Program-made: the position numbers and the translations under genes
Assembly: GCA_001534745.1 (NCBI GenBank)
Contig: CP013997.1
Span: 3,472,001-3,536,000 of the forward strand
Direction: 5' to 3'
Origin: Pseudomonas monteilii
Lineage (GTDB): Bacteria; Pseudomonadota; Gammaproteobacteria; Pseudomonadales; Pseudomonadaceae
Length of the DNA: 64,000 bases
Shown here: positions 1,194 to 3,205 of the stretch, one piece after another
Layout: each line of letters begins with the position of its first letter
Position numbering within the stretch: position 1 is the stretch's first letter
Notes under the pieces: model-generated
The model's input: the letters and a program-made list of their open reading frames with translations, nothing else
Told to the model about the DNA's origin: nothing
Databases searched by the model: none

Positions 1194-1259
1194 TCAGTAG
1201 GGGTATTTTCACCTATTGAGGTGTCCGGGGCCATTAGACCAGCTCAGGCCTTTCGCGGT

Positions 1260-1290
1260 GGCTTCATCGCGGGCAAGCCCGCTCCCACAC
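1260..1290. repeat. Intact P. putida-type REP sequence
   Basis: Contains the palindrome GCGGGCAAGCCCGC preceded by TTCATC and followed by TCCCACA. It matches the REP sequence split by the IS110 element 200 bases away (1486-1492 joined to 2668-2692). The CT at 1282-1283 is where an IS110 of this type would insert, so this is an unoccupied target copy. Confidence 0.85.
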
Positions 1291-1350
1291 CTGTAGTTGT
1301 ACTCCCACACCCGTAGTTACACCGCGTTGGTGCAGGCTATCTCAGGTCCA

Positions 1351-1385
1351 TGTGGGAGATTCTATGGTTTCTGCTAAGTGCTGAT
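1351..1385 (-). other. Remnant of a second IS110-type right end
   Basis: TGTGGGAG followed by ATTCTATGGT at 1351-1368 repeats exactly the junction between REP flank and IS110 end at 1485-1502. Weaker similarity continues (TTCTGCTAAGTGCT versus AATTGCCAAGCGCT). No transposase follows here. The upstream 40 bases (CACCCGTAG..., GGTGCA...) are also a diverged copy of 1445-1485. This looks like the scar of an earlier related element, or a duplication of the junction. Confidence 0.6.
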
Positions 1386-1397
1386 GTGAACCCTGGC

Positions 1398-1445
1398 GGG
1401 CCCAATCGCGGCCGGTCCGGCGCCCCGGCAGGGGTCGCTCCTACA
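1398..1445. repeat. Scattered palindromic repeat (GCCCAATCGCGG...GCTCCTACA family)
   Basis: Begins GGGCCCAATCGCGGC and ends GGGGTCGCTCCTACA. Related copies lie at 12109-12142, 12228-12261, 20993-21029, 21070-21112 and 21264-21300. It is a dispersed intergenic repeat of the genome, different from the REP with the GCGGGCTTGCCCGC core. Confidence 0.7.
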
Positions 1446-1515
1446 CCCGTAGCTACATCGCAGTGGTGCAAGCGATCGCGGTACTGTGGGAGATTCTATG
1501 GTAATTGCCAAGCGC

Positions 1516-2463
1516 TTAAGCGGCTTTGGGGCGATATTCCTCTCCGCTTCTGATCAGGGCAAAGACCACTCGAGCCAGCTTGCGGGCCAGCATGACCAGG
1601 ACTTGAGTCTTTTTAAAACCGCGGCTCTGCTTGTCTTCGTAAAACGTTTTCCAAGCAGCTGTCCTGCCTGCTGACATCGCCGCGTTGTGCAGCAAACGAC
1701 GGACCTCTGGATCGCCTCGTTTGGTCAACGTCGAGCGTTCTTTTTTCTTGCCCGACTGAGCCACTCGCAGGTCCATTCCTAGAAAGGCGATAAAGGCATC
1801 GGCACTCTTGAACTCGCCTCGCTGGTAGGTGGCGACCAAACGCGCAGCGGTAAGAAAACCAATACCTTCAACTTTCATACACTGCTTTACTAACGGCATC
1901 AGTCCTGCCTGGTCGAGCAGCTTCTTGATCATGTTTTCAATGAGGTCTTCAAGGCGCTTCATCGAGGTGAGCTGGGACTTCAAAAGGTTCTTGAGCAGCG
2001 GCTCACCCTCCCAGCTCAGTCTCAGCGCTGTACGCGTCTGGACGAGCATCGCGCGCCTGCGAAACAGGCTGACAAGGTCGCGATAGAGCGTCGAAGGTGG
2101 GACCCAGGGGGTAAGATTAGCGCCTTCGTTCTTGAGGTACCGGGCCAGTACCCTTGCATCGATCGGGTCAGTCTTGGCGCGTGAACCAATACCTTTTCGG
2201 TAGTGACTCAGGGCATAACCATCCATCAAGTAAAGGGTATGTCCTGCTTCATGGACCATATCGGTAAACAGCAGGTGATAGACATTGGTGGCCTCGATTG
2301 CAATCGAGACCTTGCCGTGCAATGCCTTGATCCATTGCTTGATGGCCGTCTTGTTGTTGGCAATAGTGCTCAACTGTCCGGAGCTGTCTTCGTAAATGAC
2401 GAGCTCAGCCTTAGCAACGTCGACGCCTATGATCGTGCTGTGTTCGGATGATGGCATTGCCAT
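1516..2463 (-). CDS. IS110-family transposase/recombinase (DEDD plus serine type)
   Basis: 315 residues. The N-terminal RuvC-like DEDD domain shows D15 (IGVDVAKAE), E57 (AIEATN), D99 and D102 (KTDPIDARVLARY). The C-terminal Tnp domain has a helix-hairpin-helix segment (VEGIGFLTAARL, about 198-209) and the conserved serine S237 in QSGKKK, followed by GDPEVRRLL. Family knowledge: these enzymes form a tetramer with a bridge RNA and join donor and target DNA at a CT core using the serine. The frame is intact with normal length, so it may be active. The ATG at 2463 reads MAMPSSEHS; a second ATG two codons in is possible. Confidence 0.95.
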   Translation of the reverse strand: MAMPSSEHSTIIGVDVAKAELVIYEDSSGQLSTIANNKTAIKQWIKALHGKVSIAIEATNVYHLLFTDMVHEAGHTLYLMDGYALSHYRKGIGSRAKTDPIDARVLARYLKNEGANLTPWVPPSTLYRDLVSLFRRRAMLVQTRTALRLSWEGEPLLKNLLKSQLTSMKRLEDLIENMIKKLLDQAGLMPLVKQCMKVEGIGFLTAARLVATYQRGEFKSADAFIAFLGMDLRVAQSGKKKERSTLTKRGDPEVRRLLHNAAMSAGRTAAWKTFYEDKQSRGFKKTQVLVMLARKLARVVFALIRSGEEYRPKAA

Positions 2464-2469
2464 GAGCGC

Positions 2470-2651
2470 GTCTCCGCAGGTAAGGTCTAAGGGCTTGAAG
2501 GGCCACCCAGAGGCGCAGGCTTGTACTTTCGTCGGTCAAAACCGGAAGCATTCCTTATCGGCGCTTAGGTGAAGGGAGGAGGGGCGAAATCTCCCACGGT
2601 CTGTACTGCGCGAACAGTCAGAAGCGGATCTAGTCCCTCCTCCTCCCTTCA
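2470..2651 (-). ncRNA. Predicted bridge RNA of the IS110 element
   Basis: Read on the transposase strand. A 12-bp stem (2639-2650 with 2571-2582) closes an internal loop holding TCCGCT (2628-2623) on the 5' side and GTGGGAG (2597-2591) on the 3' side. The loop is capped by a hairpin (2621-2601, arms CTGACTG and CAGTACAG with one bulged base). TCCGCT matches the left target half plus core (CCCGCT, one wobble). GTGGGAG is fully complementary to the core plus right target half (CTCCCAC). A second loop follows: GGAAT (2554-2550) resembles the left donor (AGAAT), a CGGT/ACCG hairpin caps it, and GTACAAG (2526-2520) pairs with the right donor CTTGTAT with one wobble. This is the two-loop plan of the IS621 bridge RNA. 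The ends are estimated. Confidence 0.75.
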
Positions 2652-2665
2652 AGTCCTACCATACA

Positions 2666-2692
2666 AGCGGGCTTGCCCGCGATGAAGGCCCC
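2666..2692. repeat. REP half at the right IS110 junction
   Basis: AGCGGGCTTGCCCGCGATGAAGG follows the IS110 left end directly. Together with CTGTGGG before 1491 it forms the REP that was split by insertion. The GCGGGCTTGCCCGC palindrome itself is intact at this side. Confidence 0.85.
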
Positions 2693-2752
2693 GCGCTGTG
2701 GGCAGGGAAGACAAGCAGGTATGCTGTGCGCTCTTCAACCCATGGCCCTTTC

Positions 2753-3205
2753 ATGCACGCCTCACCCGCCCTGCGCTGTACGCCCCTGACCGGACTCGAA
2801 CGCCGCTTGCTGGATCACTTCTACCGCCAGCACGGCTCACGCATGCGCACGCCAGCCGACGGCCAACCCTGGGTCGCGCGGTCCGTGTCAATCGTGGCCG
2901 GGTTGAGTCTGACGCCCGTGGAAGGCGGTCACTGGTTAACCGGATTGCTGGTAGCCCCCCAGTGGCGGCAACGGGGTGTTGCCTCGAGCCTGATGACGGC
3001 GGCCATGGCCGGGCTGGAAGGGACGGTATGGCTGTTCTGCCACCCTGACCTGCTGCCGTTCTACCGACGGCTGTGCTTCGAACCGGCCGTCGCTCTGCCC
3101 GAGGTCTTGGCGGGGCGCCTGCACCGTTACCAACGGCACAAGCCCCTGATCGCCTTGCAGTCCACCCCGTGCCTACCACCGGCAGGTGTGGGCATCGACA
3201 CCTGA
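2753..3205 (+). CDS. GNAT-family N-acetyltransferase
   Basis: About 150 residues from the ATG at 2753; an in-frame GTG at 2726 with a weak AGGT site could add nine residues. The acetyl-CoA binding motif A of GNAT enzymes is clear: LTGLLVAPQWRQRGVASSLM (R-Q-R-G-V-A). It is followed by WLFCHPDLLPFYRRLCFEP, the usual late region where a Tyr acts near acetyl-CoA. The substrate cannot be told. It is a single gene on the plus strand, convergent with the yihY-like gene, 49 bases away. It lies just outside the mobile patch and its composition matches the chromosome. Confidence 0.75.
   Translation: MHASPALRCTPLTGLERRLLDHFYRQHGSRMRTPADGQPWVARSVSIVAGLSLTPVEGGHWLTGLLVAPQWRQRGVASSLMTAAMAGLEGTVWLFCHPDLLPFYRRLCFEPAVALPEVLAGRLHRYQRHKPLIALQSTPCLPPAGVGIDT

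Follow-up and report, generated by a model that had tools for sequence, protein, structure and literature searches.

A REP-inserted IS110-group element of Pseudomonas monteilii with a predicted bridge RNA, its relatives and its one-ended mini insertions

The element and its insertion sites

We analyzed a stretch of 64,000 nucleotides of the Pseudomonas monteilii genome (assembly GCA_001534745.1, contig CP013997.1, positions 3,472,001 to 3,536,000; hereafter the window) with regard to an IS110-type insertion element that splits a repetitive extragenic palindromic (REP) sequence. An earlier note, made from the sequence alone, had described this element as an RNA-guided recombinase directed to REPs. 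Its coordinates were right, excision of the 1175 bp leaving a REP, and so was the core dinucleotide, which is CT on the transposase strand and present twice, at 1491-1492 and 2666-2667. The left end (LE) has its first base at 2665. With 202 nt it is much longer than the right end (RE, 23 nt), and the element combines the short CT core with a sequence-specific target (a REP in nine of nine copies), both of which place it in the IS110 group. A non-coding RNA region downstream of the transposase gene, a trait of the IS1111 group, is absent, the downstream end being the 23 nt of the RE. The features of the locus are collected in Table 1.

Table 1. Features at the locus, in window coordinates (LTG and RTG, left and right target guide; LDG and RDG, left and right donor guide)
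Feature	Positions	Strand	Remarks
IS110-type element	1493..2667	-	1175 bp including one core dinucleotide; nine copies with the same ends
DEDD transposase/recombinase, 315 amino acids	1516..2463	-	Pfam DEDD_Tnp_IS110 and Transposase_20; IS621 and ISCro4 alignments
LE, long non-coding end with proposed bridge RNA	2464..2665	-	202 nt, upstream of transposase gene
RE, short non-coding end; includes left donor AGAAT (1493-1497)	1493..1515	-	23 nt, downstream of gene
Right target half of split REP, with core	1486..1492	+	REP half itself 1486-1490
Left target half of split REP	2668..2691	+	REP half from 2668 onward
Target-binding stem-loop	2571..2650	-	Fold z -4.7; outer stem encloses both guides in 29/34 LEs
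LTG	2623..2632	-	Last two bases face core; covaries with left target
RTG, GTGGGAG	2591..2597	-	Complementary to core and right target
Proposed donor-binding stem-loop	2512..2566	-	GCGC/GCGC stem pairs in 18/18 aligned LEs
Proposed LDG, containing GGAAT	2547..2554	-	GAAT invariant, 18/18
Proposed RDG, GTACAAG	2520..2526	-	CAAG invariant, 18/18
Mini insertion with a single, RE-like right end and lacking an LE	1352 or 1359..1492	-	Abuts element at right target; its 1486-1492 are the element's REP half and core

The transposase gene is intact, and both IS110 Pfam models (the N-terminal DEDD and the C-terminal Transposase_20) exceed their cut-offs. Residues 10-310 of the protein align with the recombinases of IS621 and ISCro4, for which structures have been solved (E values 1.6e-21 and 6.1e-22). 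Residues D15, E57, D99, D102 and S237 face acidic and serine residues in IS621 (positions counted by eye) that are probably catalytic there. Pieces of the transposase that are 94-98% identical occur in contigs of P. entomophila, in agreement with the Pseudomonas host named in the earlier note. In a plasmid search, with 3,481 records, all were below 60% identity.

The host genome, a single contig of 4.71 Mb, contains nine copies of the element, all with an open transposase frame, and these are its sole PF01548 matches. The earlier note had left to a genome-wide list of copies whether each sits at the same CT in a REP; all nine do, with the two halves of the REP as flanks. When 24 genomes, the host's among them, were searched with the right flank, relatives yielded only short and diverged matches, not one of which was shown to cross the insertion site; paralogous sites served as empty-site evidence instead. 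To this end 25 and 27 flank bases were joined and the resulting 52 bases compared with loci collected from the host genome. An uninterrupted paralogue was found with 0-3 mismatches for seven of the copies, and with 5 and 7 for the other two. For none of the nine did control joins from 40 bases further outward give a match with 12 or fewer substitutions. The left target reads GGGGCCG-CT in seven copies and AAGCCCG-CT in two.

The upstream RNA and its predicted guides

The transposase strand between 2562 and 2652 is predicted to fold into a long stem, an internal loop and a capped inner stem, with the LTG on the 5' side and the RTG on the 3' side of the loop; these guides are partly paired to one another in the minimum-energy structure. 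All four guide motifs lie where the earlier note had placed them, TCCGCT occupying 2623-2628. Of the two loops it had proposed, the target stem-loop beats all 200 of its shuffled versions (-45.0 versus -28.6 +/- 3.5 kcal/mol), but the donor hairpin is not unusually stable. LEs were folded one by one, since RNAalifold on a MAFFT alignment misaligned the G-rich stems. Among the 34 distinct LEs covered, the outer stem around both guides has at least 9 pairs in 29, and 7-9 inner pairs are present in all 34, those of L069 belonging to a different fold.

In the predicted donor hairpin, one pair of the GCGC stem is compensatorily changed in two of the 18 aligned LEs. The proposed donor guides are complementary to the ends of the element and are invariant in rows that were chosen by those ends. 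The pairing of GGAAT with the left donor AGAAT, suggested in the earlier note, does exist with one wobble, but this puts it out of register with the core by one base. As a separate observation, CTTGAAGGG (2645-2653) and CCCTTCAAG (2494-2502) could join so that the entire RNA forms a single branched structure; in an alternative fold, CTTGAAGGG pairs within the target stem instead.

As claimed for the window copy, GTGGGAG is fully complementary to the core and right target half, and this holds at all nine sites. The match of TCCGCT to the left target and core with one wobble is likewise present in the window copy, but not in seven of the nine copies, where the REP class mismatches at that base. 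Over eight positions, the LTG of the window element pairs with the AAGCCCG sites at seven and with the GGGGCCG sites at four or five.

To compare guides and targets among relatives, 80 loci from a scan of genome contigs were supplemented by genome searches, giving 88 parsed elements. Of these, 85 rows were kept (11 with the guide type of the window element and 74 others); one with a non-CT core and two containing N were dropped. Pairing was scored between the six RNA bases before the core and the six target bases before the core, G-U pairs being allowed. In 72 of the 85 rows, at least five of these six positions are paired between LTG and left target, compared with 1,013 of 17,000 for shuffled targets. 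When the 16 guide types were permuted among target sets, none of 20,000 permutations reached the observed mean, with or without wobble; the 85 rows are not independent, and the permutation leaves lineage effects in place. The earlier note had made its reading depend on guides that covary with their insertion sites, and for the LTG this is what we find. In most rows of the guide types AAGCCCG, AAGCCGG, AAGCCAG, GGCTCG, AGCTCG and AATTCG the target letters are identical. Outside the permutation test stands G101, which was missed by the parser because its anchor differs: all six of its copies carry AAGCCGCC in both guide and target, nine of nine bases agreeing in the reading with one base more. 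The right target could be read in 78 rows, in all of which the RTG is complementary to it (the parser accepted two RTG forms only). In 77 of them GTGGGAG faces CCCAC, and in one from Nevskiaceae (L080) a changed pair gives GTAGGAG and CCTAC.

The precise insertion at CT within REPs, the target stem-loop with its two guides and the covariation of LTG and left target can be read from the sequences. Because guide and target covary over the relatives beyond chance, we regard the element, on sequence evidence, as a bridge-RNA element: very probably a member of the IS110 group that undergoes site-specific recombination into REPs under guidance of its upstream RNA. That it is RNA-guided and directed to REPs, as the earlier note had it, is supported both by the sites of its own nine copies and by the relatives. 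By analogy with IS621, the RNA would be transcribed and bound by the DEDD recombinase, and the element would leave as a circle in which RE is joined to LE across the CT core. One internal loop would then pair with the two REP halves, one strand each, while the other pairs with the element's own ends; CT would be exchanged and the element would enter the REP.

Several results weigh against this interpretation. Seven of the nine insertions in the host genome lie in the less-fitting GGGGCCG class, which makes up 76 of its 333 intact GTGGGAGCGG sites (reversed-letter controls 47 and 11), a skew with a binomial probability of 7e-4 if all counted sites are taken as equal. The 206 GTGGGAGCTGG sites (control 27), whose mismatches to the guide lie close to the core, contained no full copy (chance 0.013). 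The skew to the GGGGCCG class may stem from duplication of sites already occupied or from a rule that goes further than pairing. The specificity, said in the earlier note to be directly readable, is so only in part: the right guide fits all nine sites fully, but the element's own left guide fits the commonest site class at four of six positions only. Over its 11 rows the LTG of the window element pairs at a mean of 4.0 of 6, the worst of the 16 types bar one misread (that of G005, L163, which the anchor parsed one base out of register and which was retained in the count). Pairing is at four or fewer of six positions in 13 of the 85 rows, two of which (L020 and L057) have left flanks unlike a REP, and the RTG of G101 carries one mismatch. 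As to the RNA, the donor hairpin (2512-2567) is equalled in stability by 39 of 200 shuffles, five of the 34 LEs, all from Methyloversatilis, have 0-3 outer-stem pairs in their minimum-energy fold, and an Rfam search of 1200-3000 gave four matches, all far below gathering scores. The rows themselves include many copies per genome and lineage and are therefore not independent; moreover, they were picked by conserved, invariant ends, the very ends with which the donor guides are predicted to pair.

The loose fit of the window element's LTG to most of its sites would suit a model in which the REP is read by the transposase protein alone, with the upstream RNA a mere structured leader or regulator, as described for Asr9 and the 5'-untranslated region of ISPpu9. 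Among relatives, however, the LTG changes along with the left target within an otherwise conserved RNA, which would be unexpected of a mere leader, and we consider this account very improbable. Shared inheritance of guide and target within host lineages, which the dependence among rows and the lineage effects kept by the permutation would allow, appears slightly less probable still, given that the guide lies inside and the target outside the element, that different LTGs occur in otherwise near-identical LEs, and that in DTU12.3, thin evidence from one genome, four of five rows sit in the REP type spelled by the guide and one (L048) in another type present there.

If the RNA does guide insertion, the lineage would represent a natural re-targeting series, in which near-identical RNAs with different left guides match different REP types in different hosts, so that the guide rule could be tested without design. 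The window element, whose own guide is loose, would be the exception through which the weight of each guide position could be measured.

One-ended mini insertions

The host genome has 31 occurrences of a 16-base right-end pattern (18 exact and 13 with one mismatch; control 0), and 22 of these right ends are not accompanied by the rest of the element. One of the resulting one-ended mini insertions abuts the window element (Table 1). Among the 21 others that were read, a recognisable core-CCCAC lies upstream in 16 and is lacking in five; the unit measures 108-135 bp in 14 of those 16, and the other two, of approximately 200 bp, may be misread. In five of the 16 (L104, L109, L121, L122 and L248), joining the flanks gives a match to a different locus with no more than four mismatches of 52, the remaining joins giving a worse match, a self-match only or none. 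Where a mini matched itself or a locus overlapping it (L099, L110, L119, L120, L126 and L127), the match was not counted as an empty site. Two tandem mini units with a common core are found in G000 near 3780600 (L125, L126). Beyond the mini in the window, 37-1184 holds two adjoining minus-strand frames, presumably an IS3-type OrfB/OrfA pair.

Of 199 genomes of the genus, 53 contain the right-end pattern and 35 the left-end pattern. Counts of both are equal in 16 of the 53 genomes, right ends are in excess in nine and fewer in four, and 24 have no left end by pattern, some of which (G009, G018, G101) carry an element with a variant left end. Right ends number 91 in G210 (no left end), 32 in G176, 13 in G089, 10 in G071 and 2 in G129. 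None of these five genomes has a PF01548 match, though in G176 a stretch of 70 residues weakly matches the transposase protein. Of the 91 sites in G210, 20 were read (L217-L236). At 15 the unit starts at CAG-CT-CCCACAG with up to two substitutions, and at 13 of the 20 an inverted REP partner lies on the far side (by eye), which places those inserts within a REP pair. Of 15 such joins of 52 bases, only two have a match at another locus of G210 (at most four mismatches); the spacers between REPs are variable. By eye, the G210 units have two unrelated interiors with common ends, and many hold REP pairs. In G071 (L237, L239), two of three units read are approximately 36 bp long and lie between core-CCC(A/T)C and AGAAT-core (by eye). 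In G129, a palindromic unit with two right ends face to face is seen approximately 2.0 kb into locus L244.

The pattern of the minis is what recombination at CT would leave; it occurs also in genomes where the PF01548 match is absent and a match to a REP-associated tyrosine transposase (RAYT) is present. RAYT-type Y1_Tnp matches were obtained in all six genomes tested. The minis may be units similar to REPINs (REP doublets forming hairpins) that acquired the right end of the IS and are moved by RAYT (Y1) transposases rather than by the IS110 recombinase, an explanation whose chances we put a little short of even. It agrees with the 91 right-end sites of G210, where PF01548 gave no match, with the REP pairs within units of G000 and G210, and with the palindromic right-end unit in G129. 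Less expected, if whole REPINs moved as described in PMC3116915, is that the units split REPs of several classes at the CT of the IS.

Movement by the IS110 element itself is possible, if rather doubtful. In this scheme, IS110 elements would spawn one-ended minis, bounded on one side by the right half of a REP (core-CCCAC) and on the other by a borrowed right end (AGAAT-core). The RNA-guided recombinase would excise these as circles and insert them in trans, so that they spread REP by REP, outlive the element and reshape REP and REPIN populations. We propose mobilisation in trans because three of the four half-sites fit the bridge RNA, compared with two of four for the full element's own excision. 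Should the element indeed move the minis, RNA-guided recombination would gain a class of single-ended passengers, tying IS110 elements to the spread of REPs. Among the matches listed, titles and the beginnings of abstracts in the open-licence literature on nonautonomous IS110 elements and miniature inverted-repeat transposable elements (MITEs), ISPpu9 and ISPpu10, REPs and bridge RNA, and REPIN/RAYT mention no one-ended IS110 minis, nor do passages of PMC3718332, PMC2817692 and PMC3116915.

Comparison with known systems

Elements of this kind have been described before, and the novelty is below what the earlier note implied: the guides of ISPpu10 have already been predicted and insertion into REPs already reported. 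A 2006 paper (PMC1525189) reports seven of seven ISPpu10 and seven of seven ISPpu9 copies in REPs. ISPpu10, from Pseudomonas putida KT2440, resembles the present element as an IS110 family member inserted in REPs with a direct repeat of 2 bp (PMC1525189). In the 2024 report of bridge RNAs (PMC11208160), a figure legend lists ISPpu10 with predicted LTG, RTG, LDG and RDG; the likeness to this four-guide RNA is one of description.

With ISEc21, as presented in the seekRNA paper (PMC11187229), the element shares an upstream non-coding RNA in which the bottom-strand match precedes the top-strand match. ISEc21 targets IS3-family transposase genes, in contrast to the REPs targeted here. A case of natural redirection is given there for an ISEc21 relative. 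ISPpu9, whose regulation is treated in PMC8450116, offers a parallel to the minis: according to that paper, a REP-inserted IS110 element is accompanied by short units elsewhere that lack the transposase gene, the orphan ssr9 copies. These copies have both end boxes and lie outside REP-related sites, whereas the minis described here have no LE and are mostly in REPs.

A further close parallel is IS621 of E. coli (PMC11208160): it shares the REP target, the CT core, an LE bridge RNA in which a target loop is followed by a donor loop, and a recombinase with DEDD and serine residues. The two proteins are distant, yet align nearly end to end. The IS621 consensus has a 5' stem-loop, whereas 15 aligned Pseudomonas-type LEs are without the segment at alignment columns 21-37; in Nevskiaceae and Methyloversatilis LEs these columns fold as a separate 5' stem-loop, a possible counterpart of that of IS621. 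The order of the target guides, with the LTG on the 5' side and the RTG on the 3' side, is the same in IS621 and in the element described here.
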